A stretch of DNA of 64,000 nt from NCBI RefSeq assembly GCF_030705305.1, contig NZ_JAUZEE010000004.1, positions 248,001 to 312,000 of the forward strand, given 5' to 3'. This DNA is from Leptothrix discophora. GTDB taxonomy: Bacteria; Pseudomonadota; Gammaproteobacteria; Burkholderiales; Burkholderiaceae_C. Below are positions 6,959 through 38,781 of the stretch, piece after piece; within the stretch, counting starts at the first letter, position 1, and each line of letters begins with the position of its first letter. The notes under the pieces are model-generated. The model searched no databases. It was not told where the DNA came from and was given only the letters and a program-made list of their open reading frames with translations. The position numbers and the translations under genes are program-made.

Positions 6959-6987
6959 GGCGGGGCGACGACAACCGGGTCCAGCGA

Positions 6988-7251: not shown

Positions 7252-7616
7252 GATGTATTCCAGACTGTCAGTGACCGGCTGCAGGCTTCGGAGCGACAAG
7301 GGCTGCACAGGCAGCCTGCAGGGTCTACATGGAGTGATCCGCCCGACCGGGAGACACGCGGGCCAGCAGATCATCGATCGGGCTCGGCGGGCGGTTACCC
7401 GTCGCGCGTCACCCGTGCGTTCGTGCGTCTCGTTTCCGGCCCCGTCAGATACGTGCTGCGTGGGCCATGTCTGCACGACACGAACCGATCAGCCGTCACC
7501 GGAAAACCCAAGATTATAAACTGCTGCGCTTCGCGGTGGGACACCGACTTGCTTGCACCATGCAAGACGCCGCCCCGCCCTTCCCTGAACACGGCGCCTG
7601 ACGCCAAGGCCTGCCC
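7252..7616. promoter_or_regulatory. Divergent intergenic region with rpsP operon -10 candidate
   Basis: These 365 bases separate the rpsP operon from the TM2-like gene. On the minus strand a consensus TATAAT occurs at 7513-7518, about 260 bases before rpsP, in an AT-rich pocket. I could not find a good -35 hexamer 17 bases upstream, so it is a candidate only. The long leader between this site and rpsP shows no gene. Nothing else is recognisable here. Confidence 0.35.
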
Positions 7617-8081
7617 ATGACACCGACCAAATCGAAGACCCTCGCCACCTGGATCAGCCTCGTTGGCGGCCCGATCGGCCTGCATCGCTTCTACCTGCAC
7701 GGCCTGAGCGATCCCTGGGGCTGGGTGCATGCCTTGCTGACCTTCCTGGGCGCGCTCGGGGCGCAGCGCGTGCTGGAACTGGGCCAGGACGATCAATTCG
7801 CCTGGGTGCTGATGCCGCTGGGCGGCCTGTCCATCGCCGCCGCGATGGGCACGGCGATCTTTCACGGACTGCGCGGTGACGAAGCCTGGAACGCGACCCA
7901 CAACGCCGACGCGCCGGCCTGCGGTCCGACCGGCTGGCCGGCGGTGCTGGGCGTCGTCGCGGCGCTGCTGATCGGCGCGACCGCGATGCTGTCGGTGATC
8001 AGCTTCAGCCTGCAGCGCTACTTCGAGTTGCAGCGCGACGAGGCAACCGCCGCCGCGCAGGTCGACGGCAACCAGAAATGA
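7617..8081 (+). CDS. TM2-like small membrane protein
   Basis: A 154-residue membrane protein. The N-terminus has the TM2/NINE pattern GGPIGLHRFYLHG near residue 18, a helix around residues 35-48, then hydrophobic segments near 62-80 and 108-130. TM2 proteins are small membrane proteins of unknown role. It stands alone between the divergent rpsP operon and the convergent pit gene, and a strong terminator follows directly. Confidence 0.75.
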   Translation: MTPTKSKTLATWISLVGGPIGLHRFYLHGLSDPWGWVHALLTFLGALGAQRVLELGQDDQFAWVLMPLGGLSIAAAMGTAIFHGLRGDEAWNATHNADAPACGPTGWPAVLGVVAALLIGATAMLSVISFSLQRYFELQRDEATAAAQVDGNQK

Positions 8082-8083
8082 AC

Positions 8084-8109
8084 AAGGCCGGCACACCGGT
8101 GCCGGCCTT
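8084..8109. terminator. Bidirectional terminator between TM2-like gene and pit
   Basis: Eleven-base stem AAGGCCGGCAC/GTGCCGGCCTT with a four-base loop. It has A bases on one side and T bases on the other, so it can serve both convergent genes. It begins three bases after the stop codon of the TM2-like gene. Confidence 0.85.
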
Positions 8110-8139
8110 TGCCGTTGACACGCGGCGCGCGCGCCGGGT

Positions 8140-9150
8140 TCAGAAGAACTTGAAACTGACCAGGTAGGCGGCCGACGCCACCGCGGCGGATGCGGGGATC
8201 GTGAAGATCCAGGCCCAGACGATGTTGCCCGCCACGCCCCAGCGCACCGCCGAGGCTCGCTGGGTCGAACCGACGCCGACGATCGCGCCGGTGATCGTGT
8301 GGGTGGTCGACACCGGGATCCCCATCGCGGTGGCGATGAACAGCGTCATCGCGCCGCCGGTTTCCGCGCAGAAGCCACCGACCGGCTTGAGCTTGGTGAT
8401 CTTCTGGCCCATGGTCTTGACGATGCGCCAGCCGCCGAACATCGTGCCCGCGCCGATCGCCAGGTAGCACGACCAGATCACCCACGAGGGCGGCATCTTG
8501 TCGCTGGCCGAGGCATAGCCGGTCGCCAGCAGCAGCATCCAGATGATGCCGATGGTCTTCTGCGCGTCGTTGCCGCCGTGGCCCAGGCTGTACAGGCCGG
8601 CCGAAACCAGCTGCAGGCGGCGGAACCACTTGTCGATGCGCTTGGGCGACATGCGCCGGAACAGCCACGACACCGCCACCATCAGCAGCGATCCGAGCAG
8701 GAAGCCGAGCGTGGGCGACACGAAGATGAACAGCACCGTCTTCCAGATGCCCGCACCGATCAGCGCGGTCGCGCCGGCCTTGGCAACCACCGCACCGACG
8801 ATGCCGCCGATCAGCGCATGCGACGAGCTCGACGGGATGCCGTACCACCAGGTCACGATGTTCCAGGCGATCGCCCCGACCAGCGCGCCGAACACGACGT
8901 GCTGGTCGACGATGCCCGGCTCGACGATGCCCTTGCCGACGGTCGCGGCGACCTTGAGCTGGAACACCATGATGGCGACGACGTTGAAGAACGCCGCGAA
9001 CAGCACCGCCTGCTGGGGCTTCAGCACCCCCGTGGACACGACGGTCGCGATGGAGTTCGCGGCGTCGTGGAAGCCGTTCATGAAGTCGAAGGCGATGGCC
9101 AGCAGCACCAGCATCGCGACAACCCAGAAACCGGTCTGGACGGCATCCAT
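8140..9150 (-). CDS. pit: Low-affinity inorganic phosphate transporter (Pit family)
   Basis: Inner-membrane phosphate permease of 336 residues, about ten hydrophobic helices. Both PiT signature repeats are present: FDFMNGFHDAANSIATVVST near residue 20 and SLGHGGNDAQKTIGII near residue 190. The stretches GIPSSSSHALIGG and GIPVSTTHTITGA are the paired family loops. The ATG at 9150 gives the usual short N-terminus. It is 14 bases downstream of the PhoU-like gene, the common DUF47-pit pair, so the two are co-transcribed. Confidence 0.95.
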   Translation of the reverse strand: MDAVQTGFWVVAMLVLLAIAFDFMNGFHDAANSIATVVSTGVLKPQQAVLFAAFFNVVAIMVFQLKVAATVGKGIVEPGIVDQHVVFGALVGAIAWNIVTWWYGIPSSSSHALIGGIVGAVVAKAGATALIGAGIWKTVLFIFVSPTLGFLLGSLLMVAVSWLFRRMSPKRIDKWFRRLQLVSAGLYSLGHGGNDAQKTIGIIWMLLLATGYASASDKMPPSWVIWSCYLAIGAGTMFGGWRIVKTMGQKITKLKPVGGFCAETGGAMTLFIATAMGIPVSTTHTITGAIVGVGSTQRASAVRWGVAGNIVWAWIFTIPASAAVASAAYLVSFKFF

Positions 9151-25357: not shown

Positions 25358-25368
<11 letters not shown>

Positions 25369-26215
25369 TCCCGCCGCCCACCGCCGCCGCGCCGCGCTGG
25401 CCACCTTCACGCCCGTGCTGGGCGAGGACGCGCTGATGGCCGCGCTGTGGCTGCTGCAGGACAGCCTGCACGGTCACACCGCGCGCGAGATCATCTCGGC
25501 GGTCGACCGCGTGGCCGCCCGCCACGGCCTGGACGCACCAACCTGCAAGCGCCTGTACGAACAGTTCTACCGCGCCCTCAGCCTGTCCGACGACGAGCTG
25601 CCGCTGGACCCCTGGCCGGTGATGCAGTCGCTGCGCCCGGCCACGGCGGCCCCGGTGCGTGCGCCGGCACCGTCATGGCCCCCCGCTGCACCGGCCTGGC
25701 CGGCTGCGACGGGTGCCGGTGCGACGGCCTGGGCACCGGCCGCCGCAGCGATGGCCGCCCAGATGCAGACCGCGATGCCGCAACCGATGCCGGCACCCCA
25801 GCCGATCGCGCCGGTCGCCCCGCCCGAACCACCGGCCGCTCCGGCCTTGCCCGACGCGCCGCCGGCCGTGCTGGTCTTCGAGGCCCTGATCGCCGCCGCG
25901 CTGTCGGACGTGCGCCAGCGCCATCCCGGCGATCTGCACGACCTGCGTGACAGCGCCGTCGCCGGCCTGGACGGCTCGCGCCTGGCCGCGCAGGCGCGTG
26001 GCCAGGTGCGCGCCGCCTGGCAGCGCCATGCCGAGCCCGGCGCCTGGCGCCTCCCGCTCGGCACGGTCGAGCTGGGTGAGCTGGTGCACCTGTTCTATGT
26101 CGCGCTGTGCGAGGCGATCGGCCCGGTCGATGCCGACCAGGTCCTGACCCGCGCGGTGCGCGAGGCCGAGCAGATCCCCGCCGCGCGCCGCCACTCGCCG
26201 CGCCAGTTCCTCTGA
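25358..26215 (+). CDS. Unknown protein overlapping amtB, Pro/Ala-rich linker
   Basis: A 285-residue protein I do not recognise. It has a helical N-terminal region (about residues 1-85), a Pro/Ala/Met-rich linker (about 90-165) and a second helical region (about 165-285), with no membrane segment or signal peptide. The start overlaps amtB by 11 bases and has a strong GGAGG at the right distance, so it is translated with amtB. It occupies the place usually taken by a PII partner, but it shows no PII T-loop or PII-like pattern. A strong terminator follows. Confidence 0.75.
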
Positions 26216-26325: not shown

Positions 26326-27495
26326 TCAGCCCAGGCGGGCCGCCAGCTCGACCGCATCAGCCTGCTGTTCGAGGTTGCCTTCGCGGGCGACGGCCGCCAG
26401 CCAGGGCCGGGCCGCGTCACGCTTGCCGACCTCCATCAGCGCGCGGGCCAGGTCCAGCTTCAGGGCGGCCTGGTCACGCAGCTGGGCCACGCCTTCGGGG
26501 ACCGGGGCGGCCACGCTGGCCGAGGTGATCTCGCCGTCCTTGCCGCGCACCAGCCGGGCGGCGGGTTCGAGCGTCTCGACGGTGCGCGCCAGGTCGGCCG
26601 CCGCGTTCGAGATGTCGAGCACCTTCGGGCGGCGGCGGCGCGTCACGCCCTGCTCGTCGACAAAGGTCGACGGCAGCGCGTCCTCGTTGATGCGGCGCGG
26701 GCGCATGCCCCACCACAGGCCAGCGGCCAGGCCGACCAGCGCGATGGCCATGCCGTAGGGCAGCCAGCGCGAGAAACCATCGGTCGCCACGACCGGCGCG
26801 GGCTTCGGGGCGGCTGCGCTGGCGGGAACGGCCGGTGCCGCCGAGGCCACCGGCTCGACCGCCGAAGCCGGCTCGGCCACCGGGGCCGGGCTGGACGCGG
26901 GGACCGGCGCCGGAACGGGTGCCGGAACGGGCGCTGGCGACGGGGCCACTGGAGCCGGAGCAGGGACCGGTGCAGGGACCGGTGCAGGAACGGGTGCCGG
27001 AACCGGGGCGGAAGCGAGCGCCGGCAGGCCCGGCAACGCCTTGCCGCTGGCCAGCGCGTCCAGGTGGATGTCGACCAGCGCGGCAGCACGGCCGGCCGGC
27101 TCGGCGCGCAGCGCGTCGGGGCCGGGAATCTGCAGCGTCACGCCCTTGCGCAGCCGGTGCATGTTGCCGCCCTGGAAGGCGTCCGGGTTGGCGCGCAGGA
27201 TCGCGACCATGACCTGCGGGCGGCTGGGCACCGCACCCGGCGCGACGTTGCCGGCGATGGCCCACAGCGTGTCGTTCTGCACCGTGATGCGGCTGCCGGC
27301 GGCGGAGGAAGCGGCATCGGCCACGGGCGTGCCGGCCGGGGCCGCCGTGGCCGCCGTGGCCGTTGTGGCACTCGCGGCATTCGCGGCATTCGCCGTCTTC
27401 GCGGCTTGCGCCAGCGCCGGCAGCGGCACCGCGGTCCAGCCGGCATAGGCCACCAGCAGCAGCGCGGCCAGCGGTCGGAGGGTCGGAGACGTCAT
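26326..27495 (-). CDS. Small FimV-like protein (LysM region, Pro-rich linker, TM helix, C-terminal TPR)
   Basis: A 389-residue protein with the layout of FimV/HubP in short form. A signal-like N-terminus ends near ALAQAAKT (residue 34). A LysM-like/FimV core at about 70-130 has VQNDTLWAIAGNVAP, AILRANPDAFQGGN and LRKGVTLQIPG. A VPAP repeat linker spans about 164-200, a transmembrane helix WLPYGMAIALVGLAAGLWWG lies near 244-263, and the last 45 residues match the FimV C-terminal TPR pattern (LKLDLARALMEVGKRDAAR). FimV proteins organise cell poles and type IV pili. It is the last gene of the minus-strand operon that starts at bactofilin. Confidence 0.82.
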   Translation of the reverse strand: MTSPTLRPLAALLLVAYAGWTAVPLPALAQAAKTANAANAASATTATAATAAPAGTPVADAASSAAGSRITVQNDTLWAIAGNVAPGAVPSRPQVMVAILRANPDAFQGGNMHRLRKGVTLQIPGPDALRAEPAGRAAALVDIHLDALASGKALPGLPALASAPVPAPVPAPVPAPVPAPAPVAPSPAPVPAPVPAPVPASSPAPVAEPASAVEPVASAAPAVPASAAAPKPAPVVATDGFSRWLPYGMAIALVGLAAGLWWGMRPRRINEDALPSTFVDEQGVTRRRRPKVLDISNAAADLARTVETLEPAARLVRGKDGEITSASVAAPVPEGVAQLRDQAALKLDLARALMEVGKRDAARPWLAAVAREGNLEQQADAVELAARLG

Positions 27496-27570
27496 GGTGG
27501 GCTTCCGCAGGTTCGCAGGTTGGGCATCGGGGACAGGTCGGGTCATCGGGCGACGGCCGGGGCCGGTCGC

Positions 27571-28320
27571 TCAGACCTTCAGCGTGTCCATCAGGTCGAT
27601 CATGAACTCGGTGGCCTCGGCGTCCTGGGCCATGAAGCCTTCCAGGCCCAGCGCCTCGAGCACCGCACGGCCATCCGCGCCGGGCTCGTCCATCGTCGGC
27701 AGCAGCTCGCGCAGCGGCGCCAGCAGGTGGGCCGCACGCGGGCCGGCCAGCAGCACGTGCCGGACGTCGCCGATGTCGCTGGTGACCAGCGGGCGCAGCT
27801 GGCGGCGCACCACCGGGCTGAGGCTGTGCCAGGCCCGCGACAGGAAGAAGCCGGCATCGGCCTTGCCCTGCAGCAGCAGCTTGGCCACCAGCACGTAGGA
27901 GCCGACCATCTGCGTGAGCGTGGTGGACGCGTTCAGGTCGGCGCTGGCCAGCGTGATCATGCCGATCAGGTTGACCACCGGGTCGCTGGTGACGGCCAGG
28001 CGCGTGCCGGGCTTCAGGTCCTCGACCTGCTGCGCGCTGGCGTCCACCGGCACGGCAATGACGACCTCGTCGGGCAGGTTGCGCGGCGCGGCCAGGGCAA
28101 CGAAGCCCTTCTGGCGCACCAGCATCGCGGCGTCGTAGGGATTGGCGTAGATCAGGTCGATGCGATCGGCCTCGATGGCGGCGCGCTGGGCGTCGAAGTT
28201 CTCGAACAGCTCCAGGTGGATGCGCTCGCCCAGCCGGCGTTGCAGCCAGGTGTTGAAGACGTACCAGCCGGCGATGTGATCGGGCGAGAAGTCGGGGCTG
28301 ACGGTCAGCTGCAGGGTCAT
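27571..28320 (-). CDS. PhnD-like substrate-binding protein without signal peptide
   Basis: A 249-residue protein of the phosphonate/phosphite-binding (PhnD-like) fold. The first strand and helix begin at once as MTLQLTVSPDFSPDHIAGWY, and EADRIDLIYANPYDAAMLV near residue 52 and AVTSDPVVNLIGMITLASAD near residue 108 fit the two-lobe ligand-binding pattern. There is no signal peptide, so it is presumably cytoplasmic, and no ABC transporter subunits are nearby. The ATG overlaps the stop of the PAS gene (ATGA), which suggests a joint sensory job. The ligand is unknown. Confidence 0.75.
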   Translation of the reverse strand: MTLQLTVSPDFSPDHIAGWYVFNTWLQRRLGERIHLELFENFDAQRAAIEADRIDLIYANPYDAAMLVRQKGFVALAAPRNLPDEVVIAVPVDASAQQVEDLKPGTRLAVTSDPVVNLIGMITLASADLNASTTLTQMVGSYVLVAKLLLQGKADAGFFLSRAWHSLSPVVRRQLRPLVTSDIGDVRHVLLAGPRAAHLLAPLRELLPTMDEPGADGRAVLEALGLEGFMAQDAEATEFMIDLMDTLKV

Positions 28321-28817
28321 GTGGCGAGCTCCTCGGCTCGCATCCGCGCGTACTGCTCGGTGCAGGCATCGACCTGGCTGCGCGACGGCTTGCGTCGCAC
28401 GGAGGTGTAGCCCACCACCACGCCGCCGCGGATGTTGGGGATCACGGTGGCCAGCACCCAGTAATGGGCGCCGTCCTTGCGGAGGTTCTTCACGTGGCCT
28501 TGCCAGGTCTGGCCGCGCTGCACCGTGTCCCACAGGTCACGGTAGGCGGCGGCCGGCATGTCGGGATGACGCAGGATGCAGTGCGGCTGGCCGATGAGTT
28601 CCTCGCGCGTGTAGCCCGACAGCTCGATGAACGCGGGGTTCGCATGCGTGATGTGGCCGGCGGTGTCGGTGCGCGAGACGATCAGCTTGCCGTCCGGAAA
28701 GGGCACCTCGTGGTCCACGGTACAGACCGTGCGCTCGAAGCCGTCGTGGTAGCGCAGCCGATGCTCGCGGCGCTCGGACGCGCCGGGCACGAGCCAGGCC
28801 TCTTGGAAATCGGTCAT
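28317..28817 (-). CDS. PAS domain protein (Aer-like)
   Basis: A 166-residue protein with one PAS domain at about residues 45-145: VSRTDTAGHITHANPAFIEL, SGYTREELIGQPHCILRHPD, MPAAAYRDLWDTVQRGQTWQ, and KNLRKDGAHYWVLATVIPN. The sequence closely follows the PAS of Aer-type redox sensors, which bind FAD, but no signalling output domain is attached. It may sense redox state or a ligand and pass it to a partner. It overlaps the PhnD-like gene by four bases and lies ten bases after the Roadblock gene. Confidence 0.88.
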   Translation of the reverse strand: MTDFQEAWLVPGASERREHRLRYHDGFERTVCTVDHEVPFPDGKLIVSRTDTAGHITHANPAFIELSGYTREELIGQPHCILRHPDMPAAAYRDLWDTVQRGQTWQGHVKNLRKDGAHYWVLATVIPNIRGGVVVGYTSVRRKPSRSQVDACTEQYARMRAEELAT

Positions 28818-28827
28818 GTGAAACGCC

Positions 28828-29190
28828 TCAGATGACCTTGCTGATCGAGTCGGCGGCGCGCTTGACGTCCAGGAAGATCAGGCCAAGACGGGCATTGGGC
28901 TTGCACAGCGCGGTCAGCACGGCGTCGTTGCCGGCATGGGTCATCAGCACGTAGCCGCGATGGCCCTTGACCAGCACCTGCTCCAGCTCGCCACGGGCCA
29001 GCTCGCGCGAGGTCCGGTCACCGAGCGACAGCATGGCCGCGCTCATCGCGCCGACGCGGTCCTCGTCCATGCCGGCGGGCAGCATGGAGGCCATCATCAG
29101 GCCGTCGGTCGAGAGCACGGCCGAGGCCTCGATGTCGGCGGTCGAGCCGTTGAGTTCGCTCAGGATGGAGTTCAGCAGTTCAGCGCGCAT
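28828..29190 (-). CDS. Roadblock/LC7 domain protein
   Basis: A 120-residue single-domain Roadblock/LC7 protein, the fold of MglB and related GTPase partners. The typical pattern is LNGSTADIEASAVLSTDGLM, then the MSAAMLSLGDRTSRELARGE helix and YVLMTHAGNDAVLTALCKP. Family members act as GTPase-activating or scaffold proteins for Ras-like GTPases. The small GTPase two genes upstream in the same operon is the obvious candidate partner. Confidence 0.9.
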   Translation of the reverse strand: MRAELLNSILSELNGSTADIEASAVLSTDGLMMASMLPAGMDEDRVGAMSAAMLSLGDRTSRELARGELEQVLVKGHRGYVLMTHAGNDAVLTALCKPNARLGLIFLDVKRAADSISKVI

Positions 29191-29260
29191 GGGAGTTCCT
29201 ATGGATGGATCGGGTGGTGTGGATCGGTGGGATCGGGTGGATCAGGACGTCGCCGGCCGG

Positions 29261-29899
29261 TCAGGCCGCGCCGCCGTAGCGCACGCCGAGGGTCCAGATC
29301 AGCGTGGTGTAGGCCTCCTGGTTGAAGCGGGGCTGCCCGCCCACCACCAGGATGAAGTAGTCGTCGCCGAAGTACAGCGGCCAGAAGCCCAGCTCGCTGT
29401 AGCCGCCGGCATTCATGAAGCCCCAGCCGTCGCCGCGCAGCCGCATGTTCCCGTGCAGCAGCTGGGCATGGCGTTCCTGCACCGTGGCCAGGTCGGCGCC
29501 CAGCGCGGCGAGTTCCTCGGACTGTTCATGCGCGAAGCCGGCGGTGCCCAGGTAGAGGCCGCGCTTCTCGGCCAGGATGGCCTTGCCCTCGTCGGACAGC
29601 TGCGCCAGCACCGGCGGCAGCAGCGCCTCGATGCGCTCGGGCGGCACCTCGACCTGCACCGGCAGGCCCTGGATGAAGCCCGAGGACTGCATGCGGTAGA
29701 TGAACTCCAGCGCGTCGTGCTCGTTCAGGCCGGTCCACTGCGCGATCAGCGCGGCGCTCAGGCGCGGCGTGGCCGGCTCGCGCAGCAGGCGCTGCAGGAA
29801 GGTGCGGGCCGGGTCGCGGTCCGGGCGGCTGGCGGCGTAGTACGCGCCGGCTGGCGTCGGATGCAGGTAGTACTCGCCGGTGAGGTTGTAGTGATCCAT
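29261..29899 (-). CDS. Unknown protein between Roadblock and GTPase genes
   Basis: A 212-residue soluble protein I do not recognise. It is helical in the first two thirds, with a winged-helix-like stretch AALIAQWTGLNEHDALEFIY near residues 49-68. The C-terminal third is richer in strands and aromatics (GDGWGFMNAGGYSELGFWPL, YFGDDYFILVVGGQPRFN) and could be a second Roadblock-like fold. It has no signal peptide or membrane helix. It is 77 bases from the GTPase gene and 70 bases from the Roadblock gene, so a partner role is likely. Confidence 0.75.
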   Translation of the reverse strand: MDHYNLTGEYYLHPTPAGAYYAASRPDRDPARTFLQRLLREPATPRLSAALIAQWTGLNEHDALEFIYRMQSSGFIQGLPVQVEVPPERIEALLPPVLAQLSDEGKAILAEKRGLYLGTAGFAHEQSEELAALGADLATVQERHAQLLHGNMRLRGDGWGFMNAGGYSELGFWPLYFGDDYFILVVGGQPRFNQEAYTTLIWTLGVRYGGAA

Positions 29900-29976
29900 G
29901 GTGGCGCGTGGTCTCGCTGGGTGCGCGTCTGGCGGCGCGCGGTTGGCGGGTGGGACGCTGGGTCGGGCGATCCGGT

Positions 29977-30513
29977 TCAGATGACCGGATCGATCGACAG
30001 CAGCATCGCCTGGATCAGCGAGGACACGTCCTCGCGGCGGCGCGCGTCGACCTCGAAGATCGGCGCGTCGATGTCCAGCTCCTTCATCTGCCGGACGTAG
30101 TCGTCCAGCGTCGGCGAGGAGCGCGTGTCCATCTGCGTGATGCCGATGACCAGACGCGTGCTGGAGATGAAGTCATGGAAGGCCTTGACGTAGAACTTCA
30201 TGTCCTCGAACGGCGTCGGGCGGGTGTTGTCCAGCAGCAGGACCAGGCCGATGCCGCCCTGCGTCAGGATCTCCCACATGAAGTCGAAGCGCTCCTGGCC
30301 GGGCGTGCCGTACAGGTGGACCTTCTCGGTCGGGCCGAGCCGGATCATTCCGTAGTCCATCGCCACGGTCGTCGCCGGCTTGCGCCGCGTCGTCATGTCC
30401 GAGGCCTGCTCGTCGGTGCGGATCGGCTCGATGTCGCTGATCGATGCGATCGCCGTGGTCTTGCCCGCGCCCACCGGGCCGGTGAAGATGATCTTGTGGT
30501 CTTTGTGAGCCAT
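29977..30513 (-). CDS. Ras-like small GTPase (MglA/SofG-related)
   Basis: A 178-residue single-domain GTPase. The P-loop GPVGAGKTT is at residues 12-20, a switch I-like threonine lies near residue 48, the G3 region is YGTPGQERF at 68-76 (the usual Asp is replaced, as in MglA-type proteins), and the G4-like TQMD is at 126-129, with Asp retained and Asn replaced. The EVDARRRED segment is the probable G5. It is close to the bacterial MglA/ADP-ribosylation-factor-like group. The in-frame extension upstream to 31128 is not coding; the ATG at 30513 is clear. Confidence 0.9.
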   Translation of the reverse strand: MAHKDHKIIFTGPVGAGKTTAIASISDIEPIRTDEQASDMTTRRKPATTVAMDYGMIRLGPTEKVHLYGTPGQERFDFMWEILTQGGIGLVLLLDNTRPTPFEDMKFYVKAFHDFISSTRLVIGITQMDTRSSPTLDDYVRQMKELDIDAPIFEVDARRREDVSSLIQAMLLSIDPVI

Positions 30514-30578
30514 GGTGTCCTGGAACCTGCGCGCCTGCGTGGCGATGTCGGGATGAATGCGTCGGGGCGGCTGCGGCC

Positions 30579-32822
30579 TCAGGCCTGCAGCCAGCCCAGC
30601 AACCGGGTCAGCAGGCCGCGGTTGCGGGCACCGCGTCGCTGGGCGCGCTTGACCGCGCTGCCGTCGTCGGTCACCAGGTCGGCGGCCGCGGCGGCGCTGT
30701 AGAAGGCGAAGACGTGTCGCTGCGGGATCTTCAGCAGCTCGGCCGTCTCGACCAGACCGGCGCCGCGCGAGGTCCACAGCGCCGCCACCCGCATCGCATG
30801 CGGCGTGCGCTGGATGCGCGTCAGGTTGGGCCAGTGCTTGAGGTAGACCGGGCGATGGAGGTCCACGCCCACCGGCAGCCGGCCCTGTGCCTGCAGCAGG
30901 CCGGCGCGCCAGAGCAGACGGTCCAGCGGCTGCCAGGCCTCGCCCTCGCGCAGTTGCAGCGCGGCCTGTTCGTGGCGGTTCAGCGCCAGCGTCTTGATGC
31001 GCTTGTCCGGCCCGCGGGCCAGGATCTCCGGAAGCTGGTGGTCGTCGAAGGCCAGCAGCACGCGGTTGCGCGGGCTGTCCACGATGACGCGGCCGGCGCT
31101 GCATTCGAACTGCGTCGGCACCTGCCACTTGCGGCCGATCAGGTAGGCCTCGGTCAGCGCGGCGACCAGCGTGTGCGACGGGTCGTGGCGCAGCGTGCGG
31201 TCGGCCTGCAGCTGCTCGATCGTCGCGTCGGCGCGGCTGCCGCAGTAGAGCGCCTCGTCGGCCTGGTCGGCCGGGCTGGACAGGCCGCGCCAGACCACCG
31301 CCGGGCGGCTGGCGGCGTCGCCATCGGACGCCGTTGCGGCCTCGGGCTCGGCATTGGCGGCCGGCGTGCCGGTCTCGCCGCCATAGGGCTCGATGCGCAC
31401 GACCGGCTCGGCTTCGAGCGTGATGACGTCGGCGGCGTCCAGGCCGCTGGCCGCATCCGCGTCGTTGGCGGCCGGCGTGGCGGCACGCGCGGTGGTCTCG
31501 GCCGGGGACTCGGCGGTGTCGGGGGCCTCACTGGCGTCGACGTCGTCGCCCTCGTCACCGTCCTGGTCATCGTCCTGCGCGTCGTGGGCGTCATGGGCGT
31601 CATGGGCGCCCCCACCGTCCTGCGCCGACGGTGCCGCGCCGTCACGCGGACCGTGGACCACCACGCCGTTCGGGTCGACCCAGCGTGTTGGGCCCTTGCG
31701 GCCGCGCTTGCGCACGTGGGTCTTGTTCAGCGGCACGACCACCGGGCGGGCCGCTGCAACCGGCGCCACGCCCAGCACGACCGGCTCGGGTGCCGAAACA
31801 GCAGCCGTCGGCGCGGAAGCGGCCTCGGCCGGCGCAGCGGCGGCCGCGGCGGCCGTGGTCGATGCCATCGCGGCCTTGCCCAGCGGCGACACCGGCGCGA
31901 GGCGAGCCGCCGGGCTGGCGGGGAAGGTGGTGCGAGCCACGGCCGGACGGGCCGCCGCCTGGGCCGGCTGCGCCACCGGCGCCGGGGCGGCACCGAACAG
32001 GCGCTTGAGGAAGCCGCCGATGCCGGCCGGACGTGTTTCCGGCGGCACCCGCTGCGGGGCGCGAAACTCGCCACGCGGCTGCGGCATCGGCTGCGGCATC
32101 GGGGCCGGTGCCTCGGCCAGCGCTGCGGCAGACGATTCGGCTGATGCTTCGAGAAGCGTTTCGGCCGGCGTGTCGAAGGCGACCCGCTCCGGCACGGCGG
32201 CCGGGGCGGGCACCGGGATCAGGACGGGCGCGGTAGCCGGCACCGCAGCGGACGCCGCAACGGCCACCGGCACGGGTCCTGCAGCAGGCGCCAGGGCCGC
32301 TGCGCTCTGCACGATGGGCACGATGGGCACGATGGGCACGATGGGCTCGACCGGCAAGACCGGCACGACAGGCACCACCACCGGGATCGGCGCCGGCGCG
32401 GGCGCTTCGACGATGACCGCCACGGGCGGGGCCACCGGCGCGGCTGCGGGCGGAACCATCGGCGCTGCGGCCTCGGCCGGCGGCCGCACCGGATGCCAGC
32501 GCTGCGCGCTCAGCTCGGCCGCCGCATGCAGCAGCGCGGCCGGCGTGATCGGCTTGCGCACCCAGACCGTGCCCGGCAGTTCTTGCGGCTGGATCGACAT
32601 GGCGATGCCGGGCCGGCCGGTGCCGGCGTGGTAGGCATCCCAGTGCTGGCGCGAGGCCAGCGTGTCCACGTCGAAGATGGCGGCGTGGGCCTGCTCGGGG
32701 TCGGTGACCGCGAAACTGCTGCGGCCGGTGCTGGAGAAGAAGTAGTCCAGCACCGCCTGGGTCCGCGGTGGCAGCGACAGCAGCACCACGTTCAGGCGGG
32801 AAGGCGGCTTGAGGTGATCCAC
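30579..32822 (-). CDS. Large unknown protein with degenerate receiver domain
   Basis: A 747-residue protein with a GTG start. Residues 9-105 look like a response-regulator receiver: AIFDVD gives an Asp near residue 51, GIAMS a Ser at 76 and VWVRKPITPAALL the usual Lys-Pro near 90. The acidic pair after the first strand is missing (VVLLSLPPR), so it is likely a pseudo-receiver. Residues 110-450 are Pro/Ala/Val-rich low complexity, then a His/Asp-rich patch (GGAHDAHDAHDAQDDDQDGD). The last 230 residues form a folded region that ends in a helix-turn-helix-like stretch and a basic tail. It lies between the TPR-like and GTPase genes. Confidence 0.75.
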   Translation of the reverse strand: MDHLKPPSRLNVVLLSLPPRTQAVLDYFFSSTGRSSFAVTDPEQAHAAIFDVDTLASRQHWDAYHAGTGRPGIAMSIQPQELPGTVWVRKPITPAALLHAAAELSAQRWHPVRPPAEAAAPMVPPAAAPVAPPVAVIVEAPAPAPIPVVVPVVPVLPVEPIVPIVPIVPIVQSAAALAPAAGPVPVAVAASAAVPATAPVLIPVPAPAAVPERVAFDTPAETLLEASAESSAAALAEAPAPMPQPMPQPRGEFRAPQRVPPETRPAGIGGFLKRLFGAAPAPVAQPAQAAARPAVARTTFPASPAARLAPVSPLGKAAMASTTAAAAAAAPAEAASAPTAAVSAPEPVVLGVAPVAAARPVVVPLNKTHVRKRGRKGPTRWVDPNGVVVHGPRDGAAPSAQDGGGAHDAHDAHDAQDDDQDGDEGDDVDASEAPDTAESPAETTARAATPAANDADAASGLDAADVITLEAEPVVRIEPYGGETGTPAANAEPEAATASDGDAASRPAVVWRGLSSPADQADEALYCGSRADATIEQLQADRTLRHDPSHTLVAALTEAYLIGRKWQVPTQFECSAGRVIVDSPRNRVLLAFDDHQLPEILARGPDKRIKTLALNRHEQAALQLREGEAWQPLDRLLWRAGLLQAQGRLPVGVDLHRPVYLKHWPNLTRIQRTPHAMRVAALWTSRGAGLVETAELLKIPQRHVFAFYSAAAAADLVTDDGSAVKRAQRRGARNRGLLTRLLGWLQA
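32311..32346. repeat. 9-bp tandem repeat coding for VPI units
   Basis: Four copies of ACGATGGGC in a row within the pseudo-receiver gene encode repeated Val-Pro-Ile on the minus strand. The unit keeps frame. Confidence 0.8.
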
Positions 32823-32880
32823 GGGGTCCGGACTCGGCTAAGGGTGATCAGAAGGCGACAGGGCTCGGGCGCCGCGGCGC

Positions 32881-33579
32881 TCAGGCCCAACCCGCCGGCA
32901 GCTGGCCGTGGCGCGCCTGGAGGCGCTCGGCCATCGCGGTCTTCGCCGCGTCATCCCGGCTGTGCCGGTAGATGCCCAGCAGCTCGTCGCGCACGTCGGC
33001 ATCGCCGGGCTCGTCGAGCAGGGCCTGTTCGAGCAGGTCACGCGCACCATCGAGGTCGCCGTGCTCCAGCAGCGAGATGGCCTGTTCGCGTGCCGACAGC
33101 TGGGCCGCCGCGACGCGCAGGTGATCGACCATGCGGGCGACGCCGACGACGGCCGGGTGGAACAGCGCCCCCGGTGCCGACGGCAGCGCCACCGCGCGGC
33201 TCAGGCCGGCGTCGAGGTGGGCATGCAGGAAGTGCGCGTCCTCCGGCGCCAGCCAGGCCTCGGCCTGCTCCAGCAAGCGGGCCCGCAGCGAGCGGCCACG
33301 CGGGCCGAGCGCCATGAACAGGTCGACCAGCGCGCCGAAGGCGAAGTCCGTCAGCGGCGCGGCACAGGCCAGCCGCACGCGCTGCACATGGGACTCGAGG
33401 TCGAGCGGGTCACGCCCGATCGCCGCACCCAGGTGACGCCACTGCTCGCGTGCGTCGCCCTGGTCCAGCGGATCGAGGCTGCCGGGACGGTGGCGCGAGA
33501 AGACCGGGTGCAGGACCAGCCCGTCGAGGGCGGCCACGGCAGCGGCCGGTGCGGCCTGGCGTGCGGCGTCGAGGCTCAC
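32881..33579 (-). CDS. TPR-like protein coupled to bactofilin
   Basis: A 232-residue helical protein with no signal peptide. The C-terminus carries a TPR-like pair, with AREQAISLLEHGDLDGARDL and LLEQALLDEPGDADVRDELL, similar in style to the FimV C-terminal TPR. The N-terminal 150 residues are not recognised. The GTG start overlaps the bactofilin stop (GTGA), so the two proteins are probably made in fixed ratio. A scaffold or adaptor role between bactofilin and the rest of the operon is an inference. Confidence 0.78.
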   Translation of the reverse strand: MSLDAARQAAPAAAVAALDGLVLHPVFSRHRPGSLDPLDQGDAREQWRHLGAAIGRDPLDLESHVQRVRLACAAPLTDFAFGALVDLFMALGPRGRSLRARLLEQAEAWLAPEDAHFLHAHLDAGLSRAVALPSAPGALFHPAVVGVARMVDHLRVAAAQLSAREQAISLLEHGDLDGARDLLEQALLDEPGDADVRDELLGIYRHSRDDAAKTAMAERLQARHGQLPAGWA

Positions 33580-34016
33580 GCGGCGGCTCCGGCCTGCTTG
33601 TTCTTCACCAGGTGACCGGTGATCTCGGCGCCGGCCTGCATTTCCAGCGCGTCGTAGTGAACGTCGCCGGCGATGCGGGCGTTGGCGCGCAGGTCGACCA
33701 GGCCGGTCGCGTAGATGGTGCCGACGATCTCGCCGTAGACGATCACGTGCGAGACCCGCACGTCGCCCTCGATGCGACCGCCGTCGCCGATCACCAGCGT
33801 GCCGGCCTTGACGTCGGAGACGGTCACGTCACCGCGGATCGCGCCGTCGATGCGCAGGCCGCCGGTGAACACGAGGTCGCCCTCGATGCTGGTGCCCGGG
33901 CCGATCAGGCAGTCGATGCGCTCCTGCAGCGGATCGCCCTTCTTCTGCTTGCCGCCGAACAGCATGGAACGCACACCTTGTGCGGGTGCGGGGACGGGCT
34001 GACGATTGGTGCTCAT
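33576..34016 (-). CDS. Bactofilin (polymer-forming cytoskeletal protein)
   Basis: A 146-residue bactofilin. A short disordered N-terminus is followed by the right-handed beta-helix from about residue 37 to 135, with GTSIEGDLVFTGGLRIDGAI, RGDVTVSDVKAGTLVIGDGG and VDLRANARIAGDVHYDALEM. Bactofilins polymerise without nucleotide on the membrane and position cell-wall or pilus factors. It is the first gene of the nine-gene minus-strand operon. Confidence 0.93.
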   Translation of the reverse strand: MSTNRQPVPAPAQGVRSMLFGGKQKKGDPLQERIDCLIGPGTSIEGDLVFTGGLRIDGAIRGDVTVSDVKAGTLVIGDGGRIEGDVRVSHVIVYGEIVGTIYATGLVDLRANARIAGDVHYDALEMQAGAEITGHLVKNKQAGAAA

Positions 34017-34290
34017 GCGGGGTTCCGTTCTGGATGTGGACGGGGCCTGAAAGGCGGATCTGGCGGGGTCGGACCGATCTGTTCAATCGCGTCCTGGAAT
34101 GGAAATCATGGTAGCCACGCACCCCCCTGCGAACCGTGGCAGGAAGGCCCCGAACCCCTTGAACGGGGGTGAGCCCGCACCCCAAAAAATGCCGATTGCG
34201 ACGGCCTTCCCGCGATCCAGCCGGTCGGCCGGAAATAAGTCACGGCTGCCGTGCGGCCAGGCTCACCGAACGATCCTTTCCAGCCGGGCA

Positions 34291-34307
34291 GGCTCATCGA
34301 CTGAGCC
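34291..34307. repeat. 17-bp palindromic repeat, copy 2
   Basis: Identical to copy 1 when read on the minus strand (GGCTCA-GTCGA-TGAGCC). It lies in the 428-base gap (34017-34444) between the GspE-like gene and bactofilin. Besides the terminator at the GspE-like end I see no gene in this gap; a promoter for the bactofilin operon is expected here but not identifiable. Confidence 0.8.
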
Positions 34308-34361
34308 ATTCCGGATCAAGCCGGGCGCGTCTTCCGCACCACGCCGCGGCCCCCGAACCGG

Positions 34362-34388
34362 CAAAAAGAAACCCGCCAGCGGCGGGTT
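34362..34388 (-). terminator. Terminator of the GspE/PilB-like gene
   Basis: On the minus strand AACCCGCC/GGCGGGTT with a three-base loop, followed by TTCTTTTT. It lies 57 bases after the stop codon and separates this gene from the bactofilin operon. Confidence 0.88.
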
Positions 34389-34444
34389 GCGGGAGGACGC
34401 AGGAGAACGCGTCGAGGGGAGCGGCCGGGGCCGCGCCAGCAGGC

Positions 34445-37411
34445 TCAGATCTCGACCAGGCTGCGCACCTCGTCCAGCGAGATCTGGCCCGCGACCATCT
34501 TGTCCAGCGCGTCCTGGCGCAGGCTGTGCAGGCCCTCGTGCGCGGCCTGTCGCTGCAGGTTCCAGCCCGGCGCACCGGCCCGCACCAGGCGGCGCAGGTC
34601 GCGGCTGAGCGTGAGCAGCTCGTGCACCGCGATGCGCCCACGCACGCCGGTGTGGCCGCAGCGCTCGCAGCCCTGGCTCTGGTAGCGGCGCAGCCGCCCG
34701 TCGCGGCCGTGGCGCTCGACCCAGCCCTTGAGCAGGGCCTCGCGGTCGGCCTGGGCATCCTCGACCGCACCGCCGTGGAAGTAGCCGTCGACCCAGTCGT
34801 CGACCTCGCTGTCCTTGGCCGTGCGGCTCATGCGGCAGGCGTTGCACAGGCGGCGCAACAGGCGCTGGCTGTGGACACCCAGCAGCGCGTCGGCCAGATC
34901 CCAGGCCGGCACGCCCTGGTCGATCAGGCGCATCACCGCGTCACCGGCGCTGCGTGCGGTCATGCCGGCGATGACGAGCCGGCCACGCAAGGCGGCATCG
35001 ACCGCCAGCCGGGCGGTGGCCGCGTCGCCGATCTGGCCGACCATGATCACGTCGGCATCGGTGTTCATCAGCGAGCGCAGCGCCACCTCCATGCTCTGGC
35101 CTTCCTCGGCGCGCACCTCCATCTGGCGCAGGCCGGGCTGCAGGCGCTCGATGCGCTCCTCCAGCGTCCAGATGCGGCGTTCCGGCCGGTTCAGGTGCGC
35201 CAGCATCGCGTGCAGCGTGGTGGTGCGGCCCGAGCGCGCCGGGCCGGCACACAGGATCAGCCCGGCCGGCCGGTCCAGCAACTGGCGCAGCCGCGCCAGG
35301 TCGTCGGTCGGCAGGCCGATGGCCTCCAGCGCAAAGGGCTTGAGCCGCGCCGGCAGGCCCAGCACGACGTCCTCCAGCCCGTCGTGTGTCGGCAGCGTCA
35401 GCACGCGCAGGTCGATGGCGTGCTGTGGCACCAGCCGCGCGAAGGACAGCCGGCCCTCCTGCGGCTTGCGGGTGTCGCTGATGTCGAGATCGGCCAGCGC
35501 CTTGATGCGCGCCAGCAGCGGTCCGCGCCAGGTCGCCGGCAGCTCGCTGTGGGCCTCCAGGCGACCGTGGCGGCGCAGGCGCACCTGCAGCTTGTCGTCG
35601 GTGCCCATGGCCTCGATCTGGACACTGCTGGCCCCGCGCGCCAGCGCGTCCAGCACGATGTTGGACAGGGACTGCAGCAGGGGGCTCTCATGCCGCGCGG
35701 CGGCGGCACGGGCCCGCTGCGACAGCTCGGCCGGATCGGTCGGCCGGGTGGTGGCTTCGACCGGATCGGCGCTCCTGGCGTTCGCATCCGGACCCGGCGC
35801 GAGCACCGGTTCGGAGATCACTTCGGCGACCGGATCGGCGGCCGGGTCGGCGGCCGGGCTGGCCGCCAGGTCGATCACCGCATCGACAGGCGGGACCGTC
35901 GGCACAGCGGTGGCCGATGCCGTCGGGTCGTTGAACACCGGGTCGTTGAACGACAGATCCAGGTCCGGCACCGCGATGCCGGCGTCGATCGTGCGTTCCG
36001 GCGCTGCCTCAACCGGCGCCGCCGCCGTCACGGCGGCCCGGCCCGACCGTGCCGGCGCGCGGCCCGGCGACTGGACCGGGGAGGCACTGCCCAGCCCCAT
36101 CGGCGCGGTCAGCGCGCGATCGGCTGGCGGACGCTGGCGCGTCGCGCGTGTGACCGCCGCCGGCAGGTTGCGCTTGACGATCTCCGCGTTGGCGCGATCG
36201 CGGTCGTCCAGGTCGAAGTGGATGCCATCGCCAGCGCCCCCGTAGGCCCGCTCGATCGCGTTGCGCAACGAACCGCTGCCCGCCAGCGTCGGCGCGATGT
36301 GGGCCTGCGTCAGGCGTTCCAGCTCGGTCACCAGGTCGTGGCGGCTGGTGTCGGTCATGGCCACGACCAGACGGCCGCCGCGCCGCATCAGCGGCAGGAC
36401 CTGCAGCCGGCGGGCATCGGCCAGCGGCAGCAACGCCGCCACGCTGGGTTCGACCGGGAAGCGGTCGACGTCGACCACCGGATAGCCCAGCTTGCGCGCC
36501 AGCGCGACCCGCAGGTGCTGCACGTCGACGACGCCGCGTTGCACCAGCAGCTCGCCCAGCGGCTGGGCCCGTTCAGCCCGCTGCTGGTCGAGCGCCTGCT
36601 GCAGCTGCGCCTCGGTGATGAAGCTGAGCTGGACCAGCGCCTCGCCCAGCCGCACCGTGGGCATGCGGGCCTGCGTGTCGAGCGCGGCCAGCAGCTGTTC
36701 GGGCGTCACCAGCTGACGGGCGATGAGCTGCTCGCCGAGCTTGCGGTTGCGCTGCGCCTGCTGTTCGGCCAGCGCCTGCTCCAGCTCGTCGGAGGTGGTG
36801 GCCATCTGCTCGACCAGCATCTGGCCGAGCGGCTCGCCGATGCTGTGCTGCGTCAGCATCGCGCGTGGCACGAAGATGCGCTGGACCGAGCCCAGCGCGT
36901 CGACCGGCGCGAACAGGAACAGGCCGGCCGGCGTGTCGAGATGGCCGACGGTGCGACCGCTCAGCCGCCCGCCGTCCTGAAGGTGCATCGTGTAGGTCAG
37001 GCTGCGCCGATGGCCCAGCACCTGCCCGATCGCGTCGCCGCTGGCATCGGCCACCATCGCCGCGCTCAGGGGCGCCAGGCTGCGCTTGAGCGTGATCCGG
37101 CGGATCTGGCTGAAGCGCAGCGCCACCGGCAGCTTGTCCGGCGGCAGCAGCACGCGGGCCTGGCCCTCGTCGACGTCGAACTCGACCAGCAGGCCCATCA
37201 TCAGCTGGCCACCCCGCGACTCGATCTCGCAAGGTTCCGGCTCCAGCGACGGCGTGGGCTGCGGATAGGCCGCCAGCGGCGGCGTCGGCCAGGCGTAGGG
37301 GGTCCAGCTGGATGCGGCGCCCGAGGCGCCGACCCCGCCGGAGGTGGGCGATCCAGCGGAGATGACGGCCGGGGTTCCAGCAGCAGCGGCGACGTGGGAC
37401 GGTGGGGACAT
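34445..37411 (-). CDS. GspE/PilB-like secretion ATPase homologue with replaced catalytic residues
   Basis: About 988 residues. An N-terminal 180-residue region of unknown fold is followed by three MshE N-terminal-like segments (LGEQLIARQLVTPEQLLAAL, LGEALVQLSFITEAQLQQAL, LGELLVQRGVVDVQHLRVAL), then a Pro/Ala/Asp-rich linker and a GspE/PilB catalytic region. In that region the Walker A Lys is Arg (GPARSGRTTTL, Arg729) and the Walker B Glu is Gln (VIMVGQIGD, Gln793), which normally abolish ATP hydrolysis; the His box also has Thr in place of His. Two CXXC pairs (CNAC, CERC) of the zinc domain remain. Start ATG at 37411 has GAGG upstream; GTG at 37432 is possible. Confidence 0.88.
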   Translation of the reverse strand: MSPPSHVAAAAGTPAVISAGSPTSGGVGASGAASSWTPYAWPTPPLAAYPQPTPSLEPEPCEIESRGGQLMMGLLVEFDVDEGQARVLLPPDKLPVALRFSQIRRITLKRSLAPLSAAMVADASGDAIGQVLGHRRSLTYTMHLQDGGRLSGRTVGHLDTPAGLFLFAPVDALGSVQRIFVPRAMLTQHSIGEPLGQMLVEQMATTSDELEQALAEQQAQRNRKLGEQLIARQLVTPEQLLAALDTQARMPTVRLGEALVQLSFITEAQLQQALDQQRAERAQPLGELLVQRGVVDVQHLRVALARKLGYPVVDVDRFPVEPSVAALLPLADARRLQVLPLMRRGGRLVVAMTDTSRHDLVTELERLTQAHIAPTLAGSGSLRNAIERAYGGAGDGIHFDLDDRDRANAEIVKRNLPAAVTRATRQRPPADRALTAPMGLGSASPVQSPGRAPARSGRAAVTAAAPVEAAPERTIDAGIAVPDLDLSFNDPVFNDPTASATAVPTVPPVDAVIDLAASPAADPAADPVAEVISEPVLAPGPDANARSADPVEATTRPTDPAELSQRARAAAARHESPLLQSLSNIVLDALARGASSVQIEAMGTDDKLQVRLRRHGRLEAHSELPATWRGPLLARIKALADLDISDTRKPQEGRLSFARLVPQHAIDLRVLTLPTHDGLEDVVLGLPARLKPFALEAIGLPTDDLARLRQLLDRPAGLILCAGPARSGRTTTLHAMLAHLNRPERRIWTLEERIERLQPGLRQMEVRAEEGQSMEVALRSLMNTDADVIMVGQIGDAATARLAVDAALRGRLVIAGMTARSAGDAVMRLIDQGVPAWDLADALLGVHSQRLLRRLCNACRMSRTAKDSEVDDWVDGYFHGGAVEDAQADREALLKGWVERHGRDGRLRRYQSQGCERCGHTGVRGRIAVHELLTLSRDLRRLVRAGAPGWNLQRQAAHEGLHSLRQDALDKMVAGQISLDEVRSLVEI

Positions 37412-37590
37412 GACAGGCCTCGTGAACAGCACTGCCCATCCGAAGACACACGGAGGGGCGATGTCATCCTAGGCAACCCGGCAACACCCCAAACACGAAA
37501 TAGCGGGCGGAAGGCGGTTCACTCGGCACGGTTGGCCGGAGTCCCCTGGGTGCGCACCCATCGGCGGTCACGCCACGGGCACCGGCCGCC

Positions 37591-38781
37591 TCAACGCTCC
37601 CAGCCCCCCATCAGCCCCACGCGCCTGGAACGGGCGCCCGCACCGGGGCGGTCGGTGCCGAAGGCGATGCCGAGGCGGGCACCGGCCAGCTGCAGCAGGG
37701 GACCTGCCTGGATCGCCGCGCCCAGGCGGCGTTCGTGCCAGCCGCCTTCGAGTCGCCAGGTCCAGGTCAAGTCCGGTGCGCTGGCCAGCACCAGGCTGGG
37801 CAGCCGGACGCCGCCCGGCAGGACGCGCAGGTCCACGCCCGGACGGGGTGCTGGCGCAGGAACGCCGGGCAAGGCCCACAGCACGGTGAGGCGCGCGGCA
37901 GGCTCCGCGCGCGACCGTCGGTCAACCCGCGCCTGATGCCCCTGCAGCAACGGCAACAGCGAGGCCTGGCCGTCCACGTCCACGCTGCGGGTGTCGGTCG
38001 ATGCCCGGGCCGTCTCATGCGCCAGCCCGCGCCAGCTCAACCAGCCCAGGTCACGCAGCGACAGCGACAGCTCGGTTCCGGTGGGCCGGCGCCAGCTGGC
38101 GTCCATCTGCAGCAGCAAGGCCTGCCCAAAGGCGGTCACCGGGGGCTGGAAAGGCAGCGCGAGGGTGCTGTCGTGGCGCTCGCTGTCGACCGTGAACCGG
38201 TAGCCACGGACACCGCCCCCTGCCTCGGCCGCGCCGGATCGGCGCGCATCGCCTAGCAGCCGCCGATCGCGCCAGCGGGTCAGCTGCAGCCACTGACCTT
38301 CAAGTCGCCAGCGCAGTTCCGGCCGGTCCGCGACAGGAACCGTGGGGTCGGACCAGACGTCCGACCGGGCGAGTGCCAGGCCTCGACCAATCCATCCCTG
38401 CCACTGCGCATCGACGCGCCAATGCTGTCCTGTCGCATCACCCGGCGCGTCGGTGGCCACGTCGGCGGCCAGTCTCAGCGTGCCGGCGTCGACCCTCAAG
38501 GTCGAACGCGACCGCGCCAGCACGCTCCATTGCCACGCGGCGCGGGTGAAGGACAACCGCGCCTCGTCGTCGATCCAGGCCAGATTCCGGCCGGGCCGTG
38601 GATCGAGCACCGACAGGTCCGGATGCCGATCGCCCAGTTGCCGCAGGCTCAGCGCGTCGGCATGGTGATCGCTTGACAGGACGACGGAAAGCCCGATGGG
38701 AACGGGCTCTCCATCGGTCGACGCCGCCAGCAGGACCAGCGGCGTCCAAGCCAGCGACAGGCCACAGGCCCACCGGATCAC
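37591..38781 (-). CDS. Exported protein of unknown function, possibly outer-membrane barrel
   Basis: A 396-residue protein with a signal-like N-terminus (MIRWACGLSLAWTPLVLLAA). The rest is rich in alternating hydrophobic and polar residues and in Trp/Arg/Leu strands such as LRWRLEGQWLQLTRW and LTWTWRLEGGW, as in beta-barrel outer-membrane proteins, but I recognise no family. The GTG start overlaps the stop of the upstream lipoprotein gene (GTGA), so it is translationally coupled with it. Confidence 0.7.
   Translation of the reverse strand: MIRWACGLSLAWTPLVLLAASTDGEPVPIGLSVVLSSDHHADALSLRQLGDRHPDLSVLDPRPGRNLAWIDDEARLSFTRAAWQWSVLARSRSTLRVDAGTLRLAADVATDAPGDATGQHWRVDAQWQGWIGRGLALARSDVWSDPTVPVADRPELRWRLEGQWLQLTRWRDRRLLGDARRSGAAEAGGGVRGYRFTVDSERHDSTLALPFQPPVTAFGQALLLQMDASWRRPTGTELSLSLRDLGWLSWRGLAHETARASTDTRSVDVDGQASLLPLLQGHQARVDRRSRAEPAARLTVLWALPGVPAPAPRPGVDLRVLPGGVRLPSLVLASAPDLTWTWRLEGGWHERRLGAAIQAGPLLQLAGARLGIAFGTDRPGAGARSRRVGLMGGWER

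Follow-up and report, generated by a model that had tools for sequence, protein, structure and literature searches.

What kind of GTPase system is encoded by a close row of ten genes in Leptothrix discophora, and on what might it act? The row lies in a 64,000-nucleotide stretch, here called the window (assembly GCF_030705305.1, contig NZ_JAUZEE010000004.1, positions 248,001 to 312,000 of the forward strand). A sequence-only reading had described a polarity-like locus of a GTPase, a Roadblock protein, a bactofilin, a pseudo-receiver, a pilus-ATPase homologue and a FimV-like protein, joined by sensors. The open reading frame (ORF) listing of the window bears out ten minus-strand ORFs from 37411 to 26326, at about the positions given there, and Pfam and NCBIfam find the named domain types among the ten proteins: T2SSE plus MshEN, bactofilin, weak TPR, small GTPase, Roadblock/LC7, PAS, PhnD-type, and FimV core plus C-terminal domains. 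The parts are Mgl-polarity-like, as first described. Nine of the ten probably constitute a sensor-gated polarity switch built on a Group 3 MglA-type GTPase, whose target is likely to be type IV pili or some other polar machine. The features, in minus-strand order, are:

34445-37411, minus: PilB/GspE-like ATPase homologue, T2SSE and MshEN domains (Pfam/NCBIfam)
33576..34016, minus: bactofilin, 146 aa, first gene of the operon (Pfam PF04519, E 2.5e-26)
32881..33579, minus: TPR-like protein, 232 aa, GTG start, 4-bp overlap with the bactofilin stop (weak TPR matches below cut-off)
30579..32822, minus: 747-aa protein with an N-terminal pseudo-receiver, a long variable linker, a C-terminal winged helix ('WPNLTRL') and an amphipathic tail (alignment and model)
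29977..30513, minus: small Ras-like GTPase, 178 aa, Group 3 MglA type (Pfam Ras/ATP_bind_1)
29261..29899, minus: 212-aa protein with a winged-helix-like part (about 11-79) and a cryptic Roadblock (about 87-210) (predicted structure)
28828..29190, minus: Roadblock/LC7 protein, 120 aa, MglB-like, with invariant Asp-Gly (Pfam PF03259, E 6.6e-17)
28317..28817, minus: Aer-type PAS protein, 166 aa, Aer being the aerotaxis receptor (phmmer match to structure 8dik)
27571..28320, minus: PhnD-type binding-protein fold, 249 aa, no signal peptide, 4-bp overlap with the PAS stop (Pfam PF12974, E 1.3e-38)
26326..27495, minus: FimV/HubP-like protein, 389 aa, alternative start 27546 (TIGR03505, E 7.9e-19, and TIGR03504, E 5e-10, both over cut-off)

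Only two of the nine junctions, bactofilin/TPR and PAS/PhnD, are 4-bp overlaps, fewer than the "several" first claimed. The remaining intergenic gaps are 10-77 bp, the exception being the 428 bp that separate the ATPase homologue from the bactofilin gene. A terminator-like hairpin of 8 pairs lies inside this gap (34388-34370, minus strand), and in the five other genus genomes searched the best ATPase homologue is on a different contig (four genomes) or ~188 kb off the module (G256). Therefore, the operon has nine genes and not ten, 34016-26326: bactofilin, TPR, pseudo-receiver/winged-helix, GTPase, 212-aa, Roadblock, PAS, PhnD-like and FimV-like. The idea of one operon holds for these nine, which form a conserved unit, but not for the pilus-ATPase homologue. 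No sigma-70-type promoter was found for the operon in a simple scan. A possible second hairpin past the last gene (~26280-26258) is a reading by eye that the hairpin scan did not flag.

The GTPase carries GPVGAGKTT, YGTPGQERF, TQMD and DAR, with TT in G2. It matches structures of Rab proteins (best E 1.3e-9) and of MglA (8.3e-7). Group 3 MglA proteins and their neighbour gene were defined in 2014 by Wuichet and Sogaard-Andersen, and that study describes a compact system of a receiver-like/winged helix-turn-helix (wHTH) protein, MglA and one or two MglB (PMC4316618). The window GTPase has these marks: GTPGQ in G3, Thr in place of the G2 Arg, a deviant G4 (TQMD) and DAR in G5. Its neighbours are of the described kind too, a receiver-like/linker/wHTH protein (the wHTH by a weak structural match, the receiver from alignment) and MglB-type proteins. 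Across 11 aligned rows G3 is GTPGQ in nine and GAPGQ in two, TKxD is kept in 7/11, and G5 reads DAR in eight and DGR in three. The marks of Group 1, an arginine finger in G2 and TVPGQ in G3, are absent from the window GTPase. With GTPGQ and no G2 arginine it is therefore not Group 1, and the likeness first drawn to MglA and SofG gives way to a probable Group 3 assignment on motifs and neighbours. The contrast first drawn between a single operon here and scattered parts elsewhere is true for Myxococcus, but only there, since a compact Group 3 system was already known from the 2014 study (PMC4316618).

Two Roadblock proteins accompany the switch. The 120-aa protein is the sole Robl_LC7 match in the genome, and its alignment has a mean column identity of 80%. 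The 212-aa protein, like the 747-aa protein, matched no family in Pfam (E up to 1) or NCBIfam (E up to 0.1). Its predicted structure (mean pLDDT 82.9, falling to 53-59 at residues about 151-170) contains a Roadblock fold. Its profile matches CvnB5 and Rv3364c best, and the structural match is a Streptomyces Roadblock, 3kye; the profile reached a probability of only 8 against the Roadblock alignment, so that the structure was needed to reveal the fold. On this model the protein is a winged helix joined to a hidden second Roadblock, a second MglB-like protein that Pfam misses and that is new here. A conserved Asp-Gly pair is reported for MglB coupled to Groups 2-5 (PMC4316618). The 212-aa protein lacks the pair: Gly114 is invariant, and Asp precedes it in one of 11 rows (L021). 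The Gly114 turn would correspond to the Asp-Gly turn of MglB. One divergent locus, L126 (G654), has two Roadblock matches near its 212-type gene and a 929-residue pseudo-receiver frame.

In the pseudo-receiver of the 747-aa protein D51, D53 and K90-P91 are invariant in 8 aligned rows, and the acidic pair typical of receivers is not seen. The C-terminal part is modelled at pLDDT 93.8. The best, yet weak, structural matches of its wHTH are SEA/GATOR1 chains, which we take to be Npr2/Npr3-type subunits. A fold search with the C-terminal half gave no match at E 0.001 or better, and the SEA/GATOR1 rows are a lead only. The tail is amphipathic (hydrophobic moment, mean z 2.2; z >1 in 79/80 sequences), and this conserved tail suggests that the protein is a membrane adaptor rather than a transcription factor. 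A transcriptional regulator, in which the receiver/winged-helix protein binds DNA and the GTPase module governs gene expression, is thus an unlikely reading, even with the wHTH-like part of the model, whose low-Z likeness extends to winged-helix chains that include DNA-binding ones, and with the receiver and wHTH folds and the transcriptional role proposed for Group 3 in PMC4316618.

The TPR gene stands directly before the pseudo-receiver gene in 57 loci of the 91 described below, and a longer family, c10, takes this place in 15; c10 is found in 17 loci other than those with the TPR family, and the two together in 82/91. The single NCBIfam match of c10 is SgmX, a weak one (E 7e-4). According to PMC7519303, MglA-GTP drives pili via the TPR protein SgmX; a bipartite MglB GTPase-activating protein (GAP) and FrzS are treated in PMC9481161 and PMC11580455, respectively.

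The sensors first proposed have gained support. By phmmer, the PAS protein matches 8dik, the PAS structure of Aer, over 120 residues (E 9.4e-38), and it would sense redox or oxygen as a flavin adenine dinucleotide (FAD)-type PAS. Wherever the PAS family occurs (37 loci), its gene is adjacent to the PhnD gene. PhnD homologues lack a hydrophobic leader in 51/53 cases by a simple hydropathy test, the proteins beginning at the mature fold; of the two exceptions, L049 is borderline, with a hydrophobic stretch upstream of a plausible ATG, and L062 is a true one. In nine Aquitalea-like and other beta loci (L016, L018, L019, L021, L074, L077, L079, L085, L090) a gene of the ODP-type metallo-beta-lactamase fold (c19) lies upstream of the module; it is perhaps another hint of an oxygen link, one member having been annotated. 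In Halothiobacillus-type loci (L034, L037, L038, L041, L054, L067, L069) a 152-residue protein, c32, is encoded just upstream of the Roadblock gene and adjoins an extra PhnD-type gene in 5/7; the one member scanned had no Pfam match.

Roadblock proteins, GTPases with GTPGQ and DAR, and a small accessory protein are also the parts of the actinobacterial conservon (CvnA-D; mfp in mycobacteria). A conservon-like signalling unit with no spatial role would sense redox state and a metabolite through the Aer-type PAS and the PhnD-type fold and act on metabolism or second messengers. The matches of the 212-aa protein to CvnB5, Rv3364c and 3kye fit such a unit. However, neither a histidine kinase nor DUF742, which we take to be CvnC, is matched by Pfam among the ten proteins, sensing here falls to the PAS and PhnD-type proteins, and the bactofilin, FimV and TPR partners point to cell position. 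This reading has a low likelihood.

How far the module extends was determined in 91 loci, the window and 90 relatives, of which 80 are the best of at least 138 relatives in a genome-contig scan. The loci were fetched with the 212-aa protein as query, so that its presence is by construction. ORFs of at least 80 residues were clustered into families, and the counts are lower bounds, because in 34/86 loci one flank is shorter than 6 kb; an overlap rule missed two pseudo-receiver ORFs, those of the window and L025, which blastp recovered. The families are present as follows: Roadblock 90, GTPase 88, 212-type 86, pseudo-receiver 83, TPR 65, PhnD 46, PAS 37, bactofilin 26 and FimV 26. Counted on one strand, with a gap up to 300 bp and no intervening conserved ORF, the commonest neighbours are GTPase-212 (83 loci), pseudo-receiver-GTPase (82) and 212-Roadblock (77), and Roadblock-PAS is found in 31. 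This recurrence goes beyond chance. All nine families are present in the five other genus genomes (L117, L171-L174), the FimV match of L174 being split over two frames. The GTPase, 212-aa and Roadblock proteins together are 85% identical to those of Sphaerotilus hippei, and this identity and the position in the tree described below place the genome in Sphaerotilus or next to it. Gene order, whose loss outside close strains had been named beforehand as fatal to the idea, is kept far beyond them, across the 91 loci. Those loci with a class in their title belong to Beta- or Gammaproteobacteria or Acidithiobacillia. The 212-aa protein is found in 11/200 genomes from the order (8/109 genera, own included) and in 12/150 from the family (two strong, both own genus, and ten weak), and its profile in 40/369 from the class.

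The bactofilin and FimV genes behave differently from the rest. A tree was built by a quick method from the GTPase, 212 and Roadblock columns (91 rows, 89 of them distinct; 509 columns). Five Sphaerotilus-type rows group beside 31 mostly Thiotrichales rows (SH-aLRT 99), and Aquitalea-like rows stand away from them, grouped with Acidithiobacillus. The bactofilin and FimV are linked to the module in 26/36 loci of the Sphaerotilus-Thiotrichales clade and 0/55 elsewhere. Because they are confined to one clade, they are accessories and not core. The first view, of one device holding all functional types, is supported in part: nine genes are together here, with these two as one-clade accessories and the ATPase homologue outside. 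The FimV-like protein has, in order, a signal peptide (by eye), the FimV core, a proline-rich linker, a membrane helix (by eye) and the FimV C-terminal TPR. The genome has two bactofilin matches, the operon copy included. The window bactofilin resembles the second copy (43%, 94 bits) more closely than it does the module bactofilins of Thiotrichales (28-40%, 54-84 bits), which may mean that bactofilin was recruited separately from the module; in Thiotrichales loci it lies on the opposite strand. In Thiotrichales (L029-L033, L036, L039, L040, L043 and others) a divergent bactofilin, c9 (18 loci) and c11 (14 loci) flank the module, c9 being a small protein that has a coiled coil and apparently a membrane helix, and c11 an OmpA/BON protein.

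Horizontal transfer is suggested as the simplest reading of the Sphaerotilus-Thiotrichales clade. One vertically inherited beta version, which would unite 18 rows, 5 of Sphaerotilus type and 13 Aquitalea-like or similar, was rejected by the approximately unbiased (AU) test (p 4.4e-9). The group was picked post hoc from the tree, some rows and L028 were called beta by kinship or position, four further beta or same-order rows (L015, L017, L023, L049) were omitted, and the tree contains long branches.

The clade holds what we take to be filamentous genera, and the bactofilin/FimV linkage is limited to it. A filament or sheath device could on this ground be imagined, one which in Sphaerotilus and Thiotrichales marks filament ends, holdfast or division sites via bactofilin, and not pili. 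But the subclade containing Cocleimonas, presumably likewise filamentous, is without bactofilin and FimV in the stretches read, and the core module occurs also in Aquitalea and Acidithiobacillus, which we assume to be non-filamentous. Such a device is very unlikely.

A family-level variant bears on what the winged helix does. In members of the family other than the genus the operon is permuted, Roadblock-PAS-PhnD-TPR-pseudo-receiver-[GTPase]-212. The family search found 30/399 genomes; six belong to the genus itself, and of the remaining 24, 22 were readable, G207 (short contig) and G834 (partial match) being excluded before counting. The GTPase is present in 11 of these 22 loci and not found in the stretch read in the other 11 (L121, L122, L123, L124, L125, L157, L158, L161, L163, L167, L169). 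The pseudo-receiver protein has its winged-helix end in 11/11 loci with the GTPase and in 0/11 without; the co-loss is a single change on the tree and counts once. The winged-helix model was made from the 11 positives and is narrow, missing the true winged helix in L117 and L171-L174; wider models found nothing beyond the middle domain in the 11 GTPase-less loci, where pseudo-receiver ORFs are 288-363 residues or absent. In L167 and L169 the pseudo-receiver gene is seemingly gone as well. These patterns hint that the winged helix serves the GTPase.

From the gene content, synteny, predicted folds, motifs, tail amphipathicity, missing signal peptides and phylogeny computed here, we infer the interactions, GAP assignment, ligands, membrane binding and pilus output of the following scheme: i) the GTPase would be the switch, and the two Roadblock proteins a two-part regulator, the one that has Asp-Gly more likely catalytic and the wHTH-Roadblock protein, which lacks it, an adaptor or brake; ii) the Aer-type PAS, reading redox or oxygen state, and the cytoplasmic PhnD-like protein, binding an anionic metabolite, would set the activity of the regulator; iii) the pseudo-receiver protein would use its winged-helix region and amphipathic tail to anchor the GTPase to the membrane, and would relay the state of the GTPase to the TPR protein, in an SgmX-like role, and to a scaffold of the FimV-like protein and bactofilin; and iv) the TPR, FimV-like and bactofilin proteins would position an envelope machine, or switch it on, at the pole or in the end cells of filaments, type IV pili being the likeliest such machine.

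Besides the published SgmX route, two lines speak for the pilus link. A PilT-type ATPase (E 2.4e-125 or better) is found in 40/40 class genomes with the 212-type protein and in 309/369 of all genomes over the cut-off, which is consistent with a pilus output. In Snodgrassella, which PMC11112851 describes as having Group 3 with two coupled and one orphan mglB, mutation of the orphan mglB gave motile flares on soft agar that the authors attributed to type IV pili.

Several points weigh against the sensor-gated switch acting on pili. Small genomes tend to lack both PilT and the 212-type protein, so that genome size, like kinship, confounds their association; no pilus gene is found among 20 annotated neighbouring cluster representatives; and the link is indirect, with the ATPase homologue next door lying outside the operon. 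The GTPase-less loci keep the 212-type and TPR genes in 11/11, Roadblock and PhnD in 10/11, and PAS in 9/11, and the GTPase profile is unmatched in five of the six genomes that were searched whole (G223, G248, G318, G320, G327), G261 having one match elsewhere. Sensors and regulators can thus persist without the switch, contrary to a strictly GTPase-dependent role for the sensors. PhnD may itself be dispensable: in the genus mate G256 (L117, about 6790-8690) it is broken into two pieces that lie ~1 kb from each other and enclose a 336-codon frame, a possible insertion.

A wider proposal can be put forward only tentatively. It sees the module as a portable, membrane-tethered Ras-like switch with cytoplasmic redox and metabolite gating, a pseudo-receiver protein that would be a GTPase adaptor with a GATOR1-like winged helix and a membrane tail instead of a transcription factor, and heteromeric Roadblocks, moved between filamentous Beta- and Gammaproteobacteria and joined there, perhaps twice, by a bactofilin and FimV hub to give a self-contained polarity cassette of the cell pole or filament end.

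The ATPase homologue, which had been counted as a member of the device, was ruled out as a part of it by the terminator-like hairpin, by non-linkage in genus mates and the 90 other loci, and by degenerate motifs. No ORF of the 90 remaining loci matches it by blastp at E 1e-5, and it has homologues in 6/6 genus genomes searched. At the Walker A and B sites it has GPARSGRTT and VGQIGD, the canonical Walker A lysine and Walker B glutamate missing; we take the pilus-ATPase consensus at these sites to be GxxxxGKT and GE. It scores 351 bits against the TIGR02538 equivalog, under the cut-off of 675.65, and has three LGE-type MshE cyclic di-GMP motifs. It may resemble a cyclic di-GMP-binding pseudo-ATPase. 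Antisense to it, 34169-37936 (plus) is a 1255-codon open frame, most likely a high-G+C by-product.

The class to which the operon belongs is known and little characterised. The GTPase motifs, the receiver-like/linker/wHTH neighbour, the one or two Roadblocks and the lineages are those of Group 3 systems in PMC4316618 and PMC11112851; in contrast to these, the operon adds an Aer-type PAS, a leaderless PhnD, TPR, bactofilin and FimV, and its second Roadblock is fused to a winged-helix-like part. Myxococcus xanthus MglA/MglB with FrzS, SgmX and BacP offers the same types, a Ras-like GTPase, Roadblock, pseudo-receiver, TPR and bactofilin; here the GTPase has GTPGQ and no G2 arginine, the genes form one operon, and the TPR and pseudo-receiver proteins are like SgmX and FrzS by type alone. 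With the Rag GTPase regulators (Ragulator, GATOR1/SEA) the locus shares Roadblock-fold partners of Ras-like GTPases and the weak wHTH match of the 747-aa protein. The new elements are the set of sensors, the hidden Roadblock, the tail read as a membrane anchor and the Sphaerotilus-Thiotrichales accessories. No account of the operon was found among the titles listed for Thiothrix, Sphaerotilus or Leucothrix literature with MglA, bactofilin or Roadblock.

In the literature searched, Group 3 sets have one experimental study, in a bee symbiont (PMC11112851). The locus offers parts and predictions for them: the likely GAP and adaptor, the signals sensed and the site of the complex. Bacterial small-GTPase polarity would thereby become testable in culturable filamentous bacteria, and the hidden Roadblock and weakly GATOR1-like winged helix would bear on the bacterial-eukaryotic kinship of Ras-like GTPases and Roadblock regulators.

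Beyond the operon, 25358-26212 (plus) encodes a 285-residue protein of unknown kind, without a Pfam match, convergent with the FimV-like gene. Its cluster (c52) occupies the same place in Sphaerotilus-type loci (4 loci), and in the window it adjoins an ammonium transporter.
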